Positions 16,752-54,278 of a stretch of DNA of 64,000 bases are shown piece by piece. The position numbers were made by a program, and so were the translations under genes. The stretch is taken from the NCBI RefSeq assembly GCF_001424165.1, contig NZ_LMOJ01000024.1:305749-369748 (forward strand). The letters run 5' to 3'. Below the pieces are notes generated by a model that made no database searches, was not told the origin of the DNA, and saw nothing but the letters and a program-made list of their open reading frames with translations. Position 1 is the first letter of the stretch. The number at the start of each line of letters is the position of its first letter. The DNA is from Massilia sp. Leaf139. GTDB lineage: Bacteria; Pseudomonadota; Gammaproteobacteria; Burkholderiales; Burkholderiaceae_D.

Positions 16752-16780
16752 GTAGGGTAGGCACGGAGTGCCCACCCTAC
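16752..16780 (+). repeat. REP element, 14-bp stem
   Basis: GTAGGGTAGGCAC-GGA-GTGCCCACCCTAC forms an almost perfect hairpin with one mismatch. It begins with GTAG and, read in reverse, also begins with GTAG. It lies in the 54-bp gap before glbO, where a TATGAT box directly follows it. Confidence 0.85.
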
Positions 16781-16794
16781 GGTATGATGCTGCC

Positions 16795-17184
16795 ATGTCC
16801 GAGAACCAAACCCTGTACGAAATCATCGGCGGCGAAGCGCGCCTGCGCGAACTGGTCGACCGCTTTTACGACCTGATGGAGCTGGAGCCCGAATTCGCCG
16901 GCATCCACGCCCTGCACCCCAAGCCGAACGACAGTTCGCGCGAAAAACTCTTCATGTTCCTGTCCGGCTGGATGGGCGGGCCCGACCTCTTCGTCGAGCG
17001 CCACGGCCACCCGCGCCTGCGCGCGCGCCATCTGCCCTTCGGCATCGGCACGAGCGAGCGCGATCAATGGCTGCGCGCGATGGCCTGGGCGATGGAAGAC
17101 ATCGGCATGGACGAGGATCTGCGCATGCGCCTGATGCAGTCCTTCTACCAGACCGCCGACTGGATGCGCAACAAGGCCGACTGA
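16795..17184 (+). CDS. glbO: Group II truncated haemoglobin
   Basis: A 129-aa haem protein of the TrHb2 (GlbO) class, soluble, likely binding oxygen or NO or aiding oxidative metabolism. The proximal haem ligand is His79 (RARHLPF), and the group II hallmark Trp at G8 is W92 in SERDQWLRAM. The N-terminal YEIIGGEARLRELVDRFYDLM is the normal TrHb start. The ATG at 16795 (MSENQ) is preferred over one at 16768, which would start inside the REP hairpin. The stop overlaps the rmuC start (TGATG), so the two are translationally coupled. Confidence 0.94.
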   Translation: MSENQTLYEIIGGEARLRELVDRFYDLMELEPEFAGIHALHPKPNDSSREKLFMFLSGWMGGPDLFVERHGHPRLRARHLPFGIGTSERDQWLRAMAWAMEDIGMDEDLRMRLMQSFYQTADWMRNKAD

Positions 17185-18503
17185 TGTCCACTCTCCAATT
17201 TGCATTGTTATTGGCCGCGGTGCTGACCGTGATCGCCCTGCAGGTGCTGCTGTTACTTCGCGGACGCAGCGACGGCAGCGCGCTTGCCTTCGAACGCCTG
17301 GAACGCGAACTGCGCCAGGAACTCCAGCACAGCGCCCAGGCCACGCGCCAGGAACTGGCCGGCCACATGGCCCAGCACCAGGGCGCCACCGCCCAGCAAC
17401 TCGACAGCATGCGCCAGCAGATGCAGCTGCACGCGGCCGGCGGGCGCGAAGAGCAGGCGCGTTCGCTGAAACGCTTCGCCGACACGCTGCAGCAGACGCT
17501 CGCCAACCTGACCGAATCGAACGCGCAGCGCATGCTGGAAGTGCGCGCCACGCTCGAACACAAGATCCGCGACCTGCAGGTCGACAACGCCAAGCGCCTG
17601 GAAGAGATGCGGCAGACGGTCGACGAGAAGCTGCACACGACGCTGGAAACGCGCCTGACCGAATCCTTCCGCCAGGTCTCCGAGCGGCTGGAAAAGGTGC
17701 ACCAGGGCCTGGGCGAAATGCAGCAGCTGGCCATCGGCGTGGGCGATCTGAAACGCGTGCTGACCAACGTGAAAACGCGCGGCACCTGGGGCGAAGTCCA
17801 GCTCGAGATGCTGCTCGAGCAGGTGCTCACCGTCGACCAGTACGCCAAGAACGTCGAGACCGTGGCGGGGACGAACGCGCGCGTCGAGTTCGCGATCAAG
17901 CTGCCGGGCGTGGTCGACGGCGGTGCGCCGCTGTGGCTGCCGATCGACGCCAAGTTCCCGAAGGAGCAGTACGAGCGCCTGATCGAATCGCAAGACCGCG
18001 CCGACGCCGAGGGCGTGGCCCGCTACGGCACCGAACTGGAGCGCGCGGTGCGCCTGGAGGCCAAGACGATCTGCGAAAAATACGTCTCGCCGCCGCAGAC
18101 GACCGATTTCGCCATCCTGTTCCTGCCGACCGAAGGCCTGTATGCCGAAGTCATGCGCCGCCCCGGCCTGGCCGACGACCTGCAGCGCAGTCTGCGCGTC
18201 ACGATCGCCGGCCCCTCGACCCTGTCGGCGCTGCTCAACAGCCTGCAGATGGGCTTCCGCACGCTGGCACTGGAAAAGCGTTCCTCGGAAGTCTGGCAGG
18301 TGCTGGGCGCCGTCAAGACCGAGTTCGGCAAGTTCGGCGACGTGCTCGCTGCGACCAAGCTGACCCTGGAAAAGGCCGCCAAGAACATCGAGAACGCCGA
18401 AGTGCGCAGCCGGCAAATGGCGAGGAAACTCAAATCGGTGGAGGCCTTGCCGAGCGAGGCGGCGCAGCTGATGCTTGGCCCCGAAATCGAACGCGACGAA
18501 TAA
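17184..18503 (+). CDS. rmuC: DNA recombination protein RmuC
   Basis: A 439-aa RmuC protein, thought to limit inversions and recombination at short repeats, anchored in the inner membrane. It has an N-terminal helix (about residues 5-26), a long coiled coil rich in Gln/Glu/Arg (about 35-190), then the nuclease-like RmuC domain with TRGTWGEVQLEMLLEQVL, IDAKFPKEQY and ILFLPTEGLYAEV. Start by ATG overlapping the glbO stop. It is followed by a REP element and a REP-associated transposase, notable because RmuC acts on repeat-mediated rearrangement, though the adjacency may be chance. Confidence 0.95.
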   Translation: MSTLQFALLLAAVLTVIALQVLLLLRGRSDGSALAFERLERELRQELQHSAQATRQELAGHMAQHQGATAQQLDSMRQQMQLHAAGGREEQARSLKRFADTLQQTLANLTESNAQRMLEVRATLEHKIRDLQVDNAKRLEEMRQTVDEKLHTTLETRLTESFRQVSERLEKVHQGLGEMQQLAIGVGDLKRVLTNVKTRGTWGEVQLEMLLEQVLTVDQYAKNVETVAGTNARVEFAIKLPGVVDGGAPLWLPIDAKFPKEQYERLIESQDRADAEGVARYGTELERAVRLEAKTICEKYVSPPQTTDFAILFLPTEGLYAEVMRRPGLADDLQRSLRVTIAGPSTLSALLNSLQMGFRTLALEKRSSEVWQVLGAVKTEFGKFGDVLAATKLTLEKAAKNIENAEVRSRQMARKLKSVEALPSEAAQLMLGPEIERDE

Positions 18504-18565: not shown

Positions 18566-18590
18566 GTAGGGTGGGCGCCCCGTGCCCACC
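18566..18590 (+). repeat. REP element, left flank of the RAYT gene
   Basis: GTAG is followed by the hairpin GGTGGGC-GCCCCGT-GCCCACC. It is 24 of 25 bases identical to the inverted copy on the other side of the transposase gene (19228-19252). Confidence 0.92.
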
Positions 18591-18672
18591 AGAAACGACG
18601 CGTTGACGTGCCTCATCGTTCTTCCTGCTCCGTACCTGACCGCTGCGCGCGCACTCTACAATGCGCGCCACC

Positions 18673-19212
18673 ATGCCCCAATACCGTCGCGCTCGTACCG
18701 GCTCCACCTATTTCTTTACGCTGGTGACCTTCCGTCGGCAGCCGATCCTGTGCCTGCCGCCGATGCGCTCTGCACTGCGCCGGGCGCTGGAAAACGTGCG
18801 CACCACAAGACCATTCCGGATCGACGCCTGGGTATTAATGCCCGACCACATGCACTGCATCTGGACCCTGCCGGACGGTGACGTGGATTACTCGACCCGC
18901 TGGGCACTCATCAAGAATTCGGTATCGCGCTTTGCCGGCGTTGCAACGCCCTTGGCCGGAACGGCCACTACCTCACGCATCAAGCACCGCGACGCCGCCA
19001 TCTGGCAGCGCCGGTTTTACGAACATCAGATACGCGACGAGCGCGATTTCGAAACGCACATGGATTACGTCCATTTCAATCCCGTGCGGCATGGGCATGC
19101 CGAAAGTGCGGCGAGCTGGCCGTTTTCGACATTTGATCGGTATGTGCGGGAAGGAGTCTATGCGCCGGATTGGGGTGGGTCGCAGCTGGCGCGGTCGATG
19201 TGGATGGAATAA
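18673..19212 (+). CDS. rayT: REP-associated tyrosine transposase (RAYT)
   Basis: A 179-aa member of the Y1/IS200-like HUH nuclease superfamily, RAYT branch. These enzymes bind and cleave REP hairpins preceded by GTAG. Visible features are the N-terminal YRRARTGSTYFFT, the HUH motif H59-M60-H61 within LMPDHMHCIW, the IWQRRFYEHQIRDERDF segment and DYVHFNPVRHG with the candidate nucleophile Tyr132. The start MPQYRR matches the family; an ATG four codons earlier (18661) is possible and neither has a clear ribosome site. All expected catalytic residues are present, so it looks intact. It is bracketed by inverted REPs, and about a dozen related hairpins are scattered over the window. Confidence 0.93.
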   Translation: MPQYRRARTGSTYFFTLVTFRRQPILCLPPMRSALRRALENVRTTRPFRIDAWVLMPDHMHCIWTLPDGDVDYSTRWALIKNSVSRFAGVATPLAGTATTSRIKHRDAAIWQRRFYEHQIRDERDFETHMDYVHFNPVRHGHAESAASWPFSTFDRYVREGVYAPDWGGSQLARSMWME

Positions 19213-19227
19213 GTAGACGCTCATAAT

Positions 19228-19252
19228 GGTGGGCACAGGGCGCCCACCCTAC
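19228..19252 (-). repeat. REP element, right flank of the RAYT gene, overlaps mobA-moeA stop
   Basis: On the minus strand it reads GTAGGGTGGGCGCCC-T-GTGCCCACC, an inverted near-copy of the left flank. Its GTAG contains the TAG stop codon of the mobA-moeA gene. Confidence 0.92.
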
Positions 19253-21126
19253 ACCAGCCCTTCGAACATTAATACATCGACCATGTCGCCGGCCGCGACA
19301 TTCCCCTGCCCATCATGCAGCACCACCATGCAATTCGCCTCCGACATCGAGTGCAGGATGCCCGAGCCTTGCGAGCCGGTGATGCGTACCTGCGGCACGC
19401 CATCCTCGCCCTGCGCCAGGATGCCGCGCTGGTATTCGGTGCGGCCGGATTTCTTGCGGATGGCGCCGACCGAGCGGGCGCGCAGCAGGGGCAGGGGCGC
19501 GTCGGCGCCCATCATGCGCAGCAGGGCGTCGCGGGCGAAGAAGTAGAAGGAGACCATCACCGCCACCGGGTTGCCCGGCAGGCCGAACAGGAAGGCGTTG
19601 TGGCCGTTCGAGGCGATGCGGCCAAAGGCAAGGGGGCGGCCGGGGCGCATGCCGATCTTCCAGAACGTGACGTCGCCGAGCCGCGCCATGATCTGCTTGG
19701 TGTAGTCCGCCGCGCCGACCGAGACGCCGCCCGAGGTCACGATGGCGTCTGCGTTCTCGCAGGCGCTGCGCAGCGCTTCTTCGAGCGCGGCCGGGTCGTC
19801 GCGCACGATGCCCATGTCGATGATGTCGCAGCCGAGGCGCTGCAGCATGCCGTAGATCGTGTAGCGGTTGCTGTCGTAGACGCTGCCCTCGTCGAGCGCC
19901 TGGCCGATCGAGCGCAGCTCGTCGCCGGTCGAGAAGAAGGCCACGCGCAGGCGGCGCCGCACCGGCACTTCGGCGATGCCGAGCGAAGCGACCAGGCCGA
20001 GATCCGCGGGACGGATGATCTTGCCGGCGGCAAGGGCCGCGCTGCCGGCCTTGAGATCTTCACCGGCGAAGCGGCGGTTGTCGCCCGGTTTCAGCACGCC
20101 GGCCGCGATGACGATCGATTCCTCGCCTTCCTCGGCCACGAATTCCTGCGGGATCACGCTGTCGCAGCCCTCGGGCATGACGCCGCCCGTCATGATGCGC
20201 ACGCATTCGCCGGCCTGCGGCACCAGCCCCGTCGGTTTGCCCGCATACACGGTGCCGATCACGCGCAGGCGCACCTGGCCGTCCTGGGGCAGGTCGGCGC
20301 CGCGCAAGGCGTAGCCGTCCATCGCCGAGTTGTCGTGGGCCGGTACGTTGATGGGCGAGACGATGTCGCGCGCCAGCACGCGCCCCAAGGCGGCGCGCAG
20401 TGCCACCTGCTCGACGGCCTGCACGGGCTGCACGAAGTCGCGGATGATGCGCTGCGCGTCTTTTACGGGCAGCGCGTCCGGGTCGTAGCTTGACAAGCAG
20501 CTCGTGACGTCGGCCAGCCGTGGCGCGCGCGCGGTATCGAGGCTGTGCAGCTCGTCGAGGGTGTTGATGTTGCGGAAGGCATCGGCATCCTCGAAGGGCA
20601 CCTCGACCGCCTTCACATCCTTGTACCAGCCGTCCATGCGCCGGCCGCCTTCGCGTAGGTAGCTCGACAGGATCGGCAGCAGCGAAGCTTTTACCAGGCA
20701 GAACACCGGATGCGGCTGCGGCCGCTGTCCCGGCTCCTGGGTCACGGCAAAGGCGAGGTCGGCATCCTGTTCGCGCAGCGCCGCCAGCAGGCGCGCTGCC
20801 AGGTCGGGCGGCAGGAAGGGCGAATCGCAGGGCGCGGTGAGCAGGAACTCGGTCTGGCAGCGCCGCATCCCGGTCTCCATGCCGGCCAGCGGCCCTGCGA
20901 AGCCTGATAGATCGTCGGGCCACACGGGCACGCCGAGTGCGGCATAGGTGTCCAGGTTCTGGTTGGCGTTAACGGCCACGCTTGCCACTTGCGGCGCCAG
21001 CCGTTCCAGCACGTGCGCCGCCATGGTCTTGCCGCGGAAGGGCTGCAGCCCCTTGTCGACTTGCCCCATGCGCGTGCCGCGTCCGCCGGCGAGGATCAAC
21101 CCGCTGATCGATGCTTGTTCTGTCAT
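19249..21126 (-). CDS. MobA-MoeA fusion: molybdenum cofactor guanylyltransferase / molybdopterin molybdotransferase
   Basis: A single 625-aa frame joins two molybdenum-cofactor enzymes. Residues 1 to about 195 are MobA, with LILAGGRGTRMGQVDKGL and the PCDSPFLP metal site; it attaches GMP to make the MGD form. A linker around residues 196-235 leads into MoeA (about 236-625), which inserts molybdate. Its motifs are PAHDNSAMDGYAL, FFSTGDEL, SGGVSVG, GMRPGRPLAFG and GLPGNPVAV. No stop codon and no suitable internal start separate them, so this is a true fusion in sequence. In most bacteria the two are separate genes. It lies downstream of moaA on the same strand. The stop codon falls in a REP element. 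Confidence 0.93.
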   Translation of the reverse strand: MTEQASISGLILAGGRGTRMGQVDKGLQPFRGKTMAAHVLERLAPQVASVAVNANQNLDTYAALGVPVWPDDLSGFAGPLAGMETGMRRCQTEFLLTAPCDSPFLPPDLAARLLAALREQDADLAFAVTQEPGQRPQPHPVFCLVKASLLPILSSYLREGGRRMDGWYKDVKAVEVPFEDADAFRNINTLDELHSLDTARAPRLADVTSCLSSYDPDALPVKDAQRIIRDFVQPVQAVEQVALRAALGRVLARDIVSPINVPAHDNSAMDGYALRGADLPQDGQVRLRVIGTVYAGKPTGLVPQAGECVRIMTGGVMPEGCDSVIPQEFVAEEGEESIVIAAGVLKPGDNRRFAGEDLKAGSAALAAGKIIRPADLGLVASLGIAEVPVRRRLRVAFFSTGDELRSIGQALDEGSVYDSNRYTIYGMLQRLGCDIIDMGIVRDDPAALEEALRSACENADAIVTSGGVSVGAADYTKQIMARLGDVTFWKIGMRPGRPLAFGRIASNGHNAFLFGLPGNPVAVMVSFYFFARDALLRMMGADAPLPLLRARSVGAIRKKSGRTEYQRGILAQGEDGVPQVRITGSQGSGILHSMSEANCMVVLHDGQGNVAAGDMVDVLMFEGLV

Positions 21127-45227: not shown

Positions 45228-45956
45228 ATGGCGCGCAAACGCTACGACGACGACGACCACACGCGCGAGAGCCACGAGCGCTGGCTGATTTCCTACGTCG
45301 ATTTCATCACGCTGCTGTTCGCCTTCTTCGTCGTCATGTATGCGATCTCGGTGGTCAACACCGGCAAGTACAAGGCGCTGTCGGACGCGCTGGGCGATGC
45401 CTTCGGCGGCCGTCCCGAAGTGCCGCAGGCCAGCTCCACCATCGAACAGCTTCCCCTCACGAGCATCATCGCGCGCAAGCGGGCGGAAGCGGCGCGGCGC
45501 GAACGCGAACGCCTGAACACCTTGGCGCGCGAGCTGAACGCCTCGCTGGCGCCGCTGATTCAAAACGGGCAGGTGCGCGTGACCCAGACCGCGCGCGGCG
45601 TCACGGTCGAGATCAATGCCAAGGTGCTGTTCGAGGAAGGGCAGGCGGCGCTCGGCGGCGAGGCGCGCACGACGCTGGGCACGGTGGCCTCCTTGCTCAA
45701 GGGTGAGCCGCATGCGATCGAAGTCGAAGGGCATACCGATAACCTGCCGATCGCCAATCCGGCCTTTCCCTCGAACTGGGAGCTGTCGAGCGCGCGCGCG
45801 AGCAGCGTGGTGCGCCTGTTCATCGACAGCGGGGTGGCGGAAGGGCGGCTGACGGCGGTGGGGCATGCGGCGAATCGGCCGCTGGCGCCGAATACGGACG
45901 AGGCGGGCAGGGCGCGGAACCGGCGCGTGGCCGTGACGATTTTAGCGGCGATGTAG
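45228..45956 (+). CDS. motD: Flagellar motor stator protein MotD (MotB-like)
   Basis: A 242-aa MotB-family protein that anchors the stator to peptidoglycan. It has one membrane helix (SYVDFITLLFAFFVVMYAIS, about residues 22-41) carrying the ion-binding Asp24, a linker and a C-terminal OmpA-like domain with IEVEGHTDNLPIANPAFPSNWELSSARA. Pairs with MotC just upstream. The TAG stop codon lies within the GTAG of a REP element, so the repeat forms the end of the gene. Confidence 0.93.
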   Translation: MARKRYDDDDHTRESHERWLISYVDFITLLFAFFVVMYAISVVNTGKYKALSDALGDAFGGRPEVPQASSTIEQLPLTSIIARKRAEAARRERERLNTLARELNASLAPLIQNGQVRVTQTARGVTVEINAKVLFEEGQAALGGEARTTLGTVASLLKGEPHAIEVEGHTDNLPIANPAFPSNWELSSARASSVVRLFIDSGVAEGRLTAVGHAANRPLAPNTDEAGRARNRRVAVTILAAM

Positions 45957-45978
45957 GGTGGGCGGATCCTCCGCCCAC
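45953..45978 (+). repeat. REP element overlapping the motD stop
   Basis: GTAGGGTGGGCGGATCCTCCGCCCAC: GTAG, then GTGGGCGGA-TCC-TCCGCCCAC. The TAG in GTAG is the motD stop. It faces an inverted copy at 46039-46061, and further homology (ACGCGTTGATACG) follows in both. Confidence 0.9.
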
Positions 45979-54119: not shown

Positions 54120-54138
54120 GTAGGGTAGGCATGCCGTG
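54120..54138 (+). repeat. REP element, partial GGCATGCC type
   Basis: GTAGGGTAGGCATGCCGTG: GTAG plus a shorter GGCATGCC hairpin. It is a diverged or shortened member of the type found next to it. Confidence 0.7.
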
Positions 54139-54142
54139 AAAC

Positions 54143-54161
54143 GCGGGCATGCCCGCCCTAC
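54143..54161 (-). repeat. REP element, GGGCATGCCC type (inverted)
   Basis: Minus-strand GTAGGGCGGGCATGCCCGC, identical over 19 bases to the copies at 41248-41299. Confidence 0.9.
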
Positions 54162-54204
54162 GGTGCACCACCGTTTCGATTGACCCCATTGGCCGTCGCG
54201 TAAC

Positions 54205-54223
54205 GTAGGGCGGGCATGCCCGC
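54205..54223 (+). repeat. REP element, GGGCATGCCC type
   Basis: GTAGGGCGGGCATGCCCGC on the plus strand, inverted relative to 54143-54161 with 43 bp between them. Confidence 0.9.
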
Positions 54224-54278
54224 GTACCAACGAACGCACATCGAAACGCTTGAAAACGGCACGAACAAGGAACAATAA

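Follow-up and report, generated by a model that had tools for sequence, protein, structure and literature searches.

A RAYT gene between inverted REP hairpins in Massilia and the varied occupancy of its rmuC-moeA junction

In those sections of the literature considered here, REPtrons consist of a gene for an HUH-Tyr protein, an inverted pair of GTAG-headed REP sequences adjoining it and many further copies without a gene; several REPtrons, each specific for its own REP, can reside in one genome (PMC2817692, PMC3733652, PMC8266576). That GTAG REPs often supply the TAG stop codons of neighbouring genes is likewise already known from these sections (PMC3733652). Within the family of the transposases (RAYT or TnpA-REP), group 2 is told apart by long, bulged REPs and a C-terminal tail and group 3 by short, perfect hairpins. 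The E. coli enzyme depends critically on GTAG, whereas the two group 3 enzymes examined mostly tolerated changes to it (PMC8266576). Mobility of tnpA-REP genes is not known according to the relevant passages of two papers (PMC8266576, PMC6006769), and for a small number of RAYTs located at new sites duplication or horizontal gain has been considered (Nunvar et al., PMC3686654, as excerpted). The same excerpts describe the orthoswitch in Pseudomonas fluorescens and Stenotrophomonas, in which syntenic RAYTs are accompanied by different REPs and a new REP spreads while the old one decays. Massilia is not mentioned in the main text of PMC2817692, PMC3733652 and PMC6006769, and a coarse search of titles and the beginnings of abstracts, mostly outside the subscription literature, revealed neither an account of REPtrons in Massilia nor one of a docking site for RAYTs.

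The window analyzed in this work is a stretch of 64,000 nucleotides from Massilia sp. Leaf139, whose genome (G000) was compared with further genomes of the genus (other G labels; 62 in total). It contains a RAYT gene between two open reading frames that we provisionally name rmuC and mobA-moeA. The unit is a REPtron and thus of an already known kind. Its features and those of its neighbours are:

17067-18503, plus strand: rmuC-like open reading frame from the reading frame list, left neighbour and site marker, true start uncertain
18566-18590, plus strand: left REP, GTAG head and hairpin of class GCGCCCYGTGC with tail CACC, GTAGGGTGGGCGCCCCGTGCCCACC
18673-19212, plus strand: RAYT / TnpA-REP (HUH-Y1) gene, matching NF047646, PF01797 and PDB 4ER8
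18847-18855, plus strand: codons of the HMH (HUH) motif, residues 59-61, aligned to 4ER8
19066-19068, plus strand: codon of Tyr132, the candidate catalytic residue (YVHFNPV), aligned to 4ER8
19228-19252, minus strand: right REP, one base different from the inverted left REP, GTAGGGTGGGCGCCCTGTGCCCACC
19249-19251, minus strand: TAG stop of the convergent moeA-containing reading frame, supplied by the GTAG that heads the right REP, as read from the sequence
19249-21126, minus strand: mobA-moeA-like open reading frame from the reading frame list, right neighbour and site marker

The RAYT reading frame is intact and comprises 179 codons from the ATG at 18673 to the stop at 19212. This ATG is more probably the start than an alternative further upstream at 18661, from which the frame would have 183 codons and the HMH motif and the tyrosine would be numbered 63-65 and 136. 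The family had been named correctly in the original prediction: the protein scores 185.8 bits against the NCBIfam model for REP-associated tyrosine transposases (NF047646, cut-off 80), a model exceeding its cut-off in one of 14 control genomes, and 25.5 bits against Pfam PF01797 (Y1_Tnp, cut-off 23), and matches E. coli TnpA-REP (PDB 4ER8) with a phmmer E value of 1.2e-40. Over query residues 5-174 the HUH motif, the tyrosine and nearby motifs align with 4ER8, such that both predicted positions, 59-61 and 132, are in place and neither residue is missing. The repeats differ: E. coli REPs are long and bulged (PMC8266576), whereas the Massilia REP is a short, near-perfect hairpin. Such a hairpin with a G-T pair resembles those of group 3, whereas the sole solved protein match, in a comparison made without group 3 sequences, is the group 2 enzyme of E. 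coli.

Left and right REP show one mismatch in 25 nt, exactly as originally described for the GTAG-headed left hairpin and its inverted 25-base counterpart, and the arms are 96% complementary across 27 nt. A gapped pattern that finds both arms yields two matches in the 64-kb window and none in 100 shuffles of it, by which chance hairpins are ruled out. On the strand that carries GTAG each arm folds into a hairpin of -9.3 kcal/mol, equalled by 4 of 200 shuffles per arm, whereas the opposite strands fold more weakly (-7.8 kcal/mol; 15 and 12 of 200 shuffles as good). The former fold has eight pairs, of which the one next to the loop is G-T, by which the stem of this class differs from published REPtrons; the latter has seven. 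When occupied sites were inspected by eye, no convincing target-site duplication was apparent at the junctions; similar letters occur on both sides of the window copy, those on the right being moeA codons. The 25-base REP gave no exact match in viral contigs, in a search that may omit near records, and a tblastn search of plasmids with the RAYT returned 25 records, all below 60% identity, with no Massilia among the ten organism names listed.

In the genome of the window the REP class GCGCCCYGTGC is represented by 62 exact stems and by 99 places when up to one mismatch is allowed, only two of which adjoin the gene. The earlier statement that the copies start with GTAG agrees with the first 30 of the 62 exact stems, 29 of which are preceded by GTAGG and one by ATAGG, GTAG having been no part of the search. 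A high-copy cognate REP with a GTAG head is thus present together with a RAYT that is single-copy in its own genome, where the next best match has 61% identity and no near-identical second copy was detected. These numbers also bear on the idea that the unit is an ordinary autonomous insertion sequence of the IS200/IS605 type, with which the Y1 transposase family match above the PF01797 cut-off would agree. Symmetrical inverted GTAG hairpins and the many stems elsewhere in the genome make this extremely improbable; multiple near-identical full copies were not found in this genome, and membership in IS200/IS605 was rejected, the protein scoring 14.6 bits with the IS200 equivalog model, whose cut-off is 55.

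A script located nine REP hairpins in the window, seven of which belong to other classes. The genome has six RAYT matches, five above the model cut-off; of these five, L031-L034 are each bracketed by their own inverted pair of GTAG hairpins. The stems differ from RAYT to RAYT and read GCACTTGTGC, GCGCCCYGTGC (window RAYT), GCATGC and GACGGG/CCCGTC. Around the fifth (L035) no GTAGGG hairpin was found within the distance searched, and for the sixth, sub-threshold match (L036) the only REP pair lies upstream. L035 (G000:C23:40510-40929), which itself does not match the simple HUH pattern used, represents a second, divergent RAYT type that occurs, at 36-44% identity and once per genome, in 56 of the 62 genomes. 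The same genome harbours GTAGGGTGGGC...GCCCACCCTAC elements that are full palindromes and thus show GTAG on either strand, at G000:C1:1447605-1447635 and nine other places; their stems, for example GCGGGTCTCCCGC and GCTCGAGAGC, are absent from the RAYT-flanking REPs examined in G000.

The original prediction had presented the link between this gene and these particular repeats as inference. The distribution of the repeats across the genus supports the link at the level of sequence. Copies were counted per genome as the exact pattern with tail CACC plus the pattern with tail CACG, the latter also allowing GCGCTC (the form of 4 of the 37 CACG-pattern copies in G000). Six of the 62 genomes carry 41-109 copies (CACC + CACG: G000 22 + 37, G034 100 + 9, G050 0 + 86, G011 1 + 50, G040 0 + 45, G037 4 + 37) and the other 56 have 0-5 in total and, for the CACG pattern alone, at most four each. 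The six are exactly the genomes with a RAYT of at least 72% identity, and in them a REP of this class flanks the gene on the left in six of six and on the right in five of six, the right REP of G034 being broken. Because the six form one clade, few independent events stand behind this association. Their host clade comprises nine genomes, and the three without this RAYT/REP pair have five copies (G016) or none (G045, G048); G045 has a RAYT of 64% identity without an adjoining REP, and G048, a genome 84% complete, contains RAYT fragments. The search for repeats spread through genomes without a tie to the gene or its orthologues, which had been named as the observation that would speak against the link, turned up none of this class. 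A RAYT lineage closely allied to that of the window (100/100), represented by L067, L068 and L069 in G011, G045 and G050, occupies one common site and has no adjoining GTAGGG hairpin.

It might be argued that the REPs are independent structural elements, for example terminators of convergent genes, whose position next to the gene reflects chance or site preference, as they sit at the stop codons of convergent genes and as the same intergenic spots hold different REP classes in different genomes. We regard this as very unlikely, given that most homologues examined have a matched inverted pair and that both stem and copy number of this class track the RAYT lineage. For two other REP classes, counted across all 62 genomes as well, the link is looser, and these follow their RAYTs only partly. 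The class ACTYGT is abundant in genomes with a RAYT so flanked (G001 92, G011 195, G040 80 copies), whereas G000, with such a RAYT in L031, has only eight copies and G016, G037, G045 and G050, without one among the RAYTs examined, have 49, 41, 40 and 17. Similarly, the class ASTCCYGAST reaches 94 and 43 copies in G040 and G037, where it flanks a RAYT, and 66, 47, 24, 15 and 12 in G045, G034, G050, G016 and G011, where it flanks none of those examined; for both classes the RAYTs examined left out the divergent RAYT of each genome. The same mixed pattern in Pseudomonas and Stenotrophomonas is attributed, in the sections considered, to loss of the RAYT or to a change of the flanking REP, the orthoswitch (Nunvar et al., PMC3686654).

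Very probably the whole arrangement is explained by the action of the RAYT on its cognate REP pair, from which REPs would be dispersed with the pair as template. As a single-strand HUH-Tyr nuclease, the protein would recognize the GTAG-headed cognate hairpin whenever the strand is single, for instance in the lagging-strand template, cut beside the hairpin through Tyr132 and move or copy REPs and DNA of REP pairs to other intergenic places; the inverted REPs adjoining the gene would be the pair cognate to it and probably serve as the template from which new copies arise. Binding and cutting are ascribed to the window RAYT because of its family membership, and together with copying and the order of events they stay predictions. 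The original prediction relied on the need of E. coli TnpA-REP for GTAG, which accords with the published account of that enzyme as far as it was available, the group 3 enzymes described there being the largely tolerant ones (PMC8266576).

If the bracketing pair is the template, a change in it, such as that from tail CACG to CACC, should spread through the genome. CACC is found on both window REPs and on the left REP of the sister RAYT in G034 (100/92), and outside G000 and G034 there are at most four CACC copies in each of the other 60 genomes. That CACC is frequent only in the two genomes with sister RAYTs suggests dispersal since those lineages parted, and CACC is probably the newer tail because it is absent or rare in relatives. 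The distribution of both tails is what copying from gene-flanking REPs would be expected to produce, and it fits the orthoswitch pattern, although the tree frequently shows syntenic RAYTs at the Massilia junction to be non-orthologous, and their orientation can be reversed. The tail difference looks as if caught part-way, at 22 CACC to 37 CACG in G000 and 100 to 9 in G034. The description of the unit as live or recently live is thereby indirectly upheld for the repeats, by the intact gene and by a tail variant shared, in two genomes only, between bracketing and dispersed copies; for the enzyme it goes beyond the evidence.

Conversion in place of REPs shared by G000 and G034 was also considered and set aside, as just one of three candidate pairs (L170/L179) aligned as the same REP pair; L155/L212 and L161/L217 looked shared and did not so align. 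Of 16 CACC loci of G000 other than that of the window, 3 matched on both sides one of 41 G034 loci drawn from 64 listed of 100 places, where gain and loss are inseparable.

The interval was also compared in related genomes, as had been proposed. The rmuC gene was detected in 61 of the 62 genomes, and the DNA beyond it was read in all 61; in five (G013, G019, G020, G022, G057) moeA lies outside the stretch read, in which no RAYT was seen. Between rmuC and moeA a RAYT resides in 26 of the 61 genomes, interrupted in one of them (G017), and a 27th (G048) has a fragment. The junction RAYT has the orientation of rmuC in 19 cases and the opposite one in seven, and some are accompanied by extra DNA (e.g. 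G004, G011, G024, G029, G045, G001). Seven junctions are empty and lack a GTAGGG hairpin, the last aligned codons being just 27-59 bases apart (G003, G018, G027, G031, G047, G052, G056); others contain REPs without a RAYT (e.g. G061) or other DNA. At several of the occupied sites inspected the GTAG of a REP forms, as seen by eye, the TAG stop of rmuC or moeA. Outside the genus neither rmuC nor moeA was found beside the RAYT in any of 24 family loci with flanks of up to 1.5 kb, and a GTAG hairpin lies near the gene in 18 of these 24 by a loose test.

A static, vertically inherited and domesticated RAYT would agree with several of these observations, provided that the variety at the junction arose only when Massilia strains swapped the entire locus by ordinary homologous recombination, without REP-mediated movement. 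Seven of the nine genomes of the host clade carry the window RAYT lineage at the same site and in the same orientation, there is no second near-copy in its own genome, and the published view, in the sections consulted, is that evidence for tnpA-REP mobility is lacking and inheritance is mainly vertical below genus level (PMC8266576, PMC6006769). The host tree is built on the two flanking genes only, and whole-locus exchange would therefore be hidden in it. Against this stands the tree of the RAYTs themselves, which comprises the 58 of 139 matches scoring at least 187 bits and thereby excludes weak matches, fragments and the divergent 36-44% RAYTs; the interrupted L092 is likewise absent from it. 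The junction RAYTs are not one clade in this tree, which requires 11 label changes, eight of them forced by well-supported branches, and a single clade is rejected by the AU test (p 0.0009); several have kin at other sites. L059, L085, L087 and L091 are on long branches, and their placement is unsure.

The alignments of the junction likewise disagree with a static RAYT. Flanks of 86-100% identity give way abruptly to cassettes of 35-75% in the pairs G029/G001, G023/G015 and G040/G016, and in G004/G026 the moeA side alone stays aligned. The hosts G029 and G001 are sisters (100/97 in the flanking-gene tree) with flanks 86-95% and 97-100% identical and RAYTs of 52% protein identity, the lineages of which are less sure as both are long branches. 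The junction RAYT of G016 is backwards and has as its nearest kin a G000 RAYT at another site (68%); its grouping with the lineage of the window is rejected (AU p 0.0003, a test chosen after inspection of the tree). In three further pairs, of kin at this site (G030/G060, G049/G010, G051/G054), the cassette aligns reversed at 74-80% DNA identity with the flanks in forward order. The reversed part is bounded by a REP at either end in two of them, whereas in G049/G010 it begins at one REP and stops shortly beyond the gene. Whole-locus exchange by itself explains neither the first arrival of each lineage nor the flips, and we consider the static RAYT possible but rather doubtful.

Cassette differences between conserved flanks and inversions in kin argue for turnover of the RAYT cassette at the rmuC-moeA site, by transposition, by recombination through the REPs or by exchange of flanking DNA. 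The junction is evidence against a strictly static RAYT gene in Massilia, but its states could also arise without transposition, by recombination through the REPs or exchange of flanks. We put forward tentatively, as a reading that may or may not prevail, that a RAYT and its inverted REPs form a mobile or recombining cassette and that rmuC-moeA is a recurrent docking site, where unrelated cassettes replace each other and flip between their REPs. If so, the REPs would be the ends of a replaceable and invertible cassette in addition to being a substrate of dispersal, contrary to the published view that tnpA-REP genes are not mobile. Both the spread of REPs and the movement of RAYT genes are testable in Massilia, a compact natural experiment with four RAYTs in G000, each with its own REP pair, and with one junction that is occupied, empty, swapped or flipped among similar hosts.

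Three other places in the window (54136-54230, 45953-45978 and 16752-16780) correspond to orthologous intergenic spots with different REP classes in different relatives, as if such spots were re-used or the REPs replaced in place. In this comparison the label "empty" proved unreliable, since the left REP of G034 at rmuC-moeA was so labelled though present, and only occupied spots were therefore used. At 54136-54230 the window has a GCATGC pair, G011 a GACGGG/GACGGC pair and G045 a GACACC/GACTCC pair.
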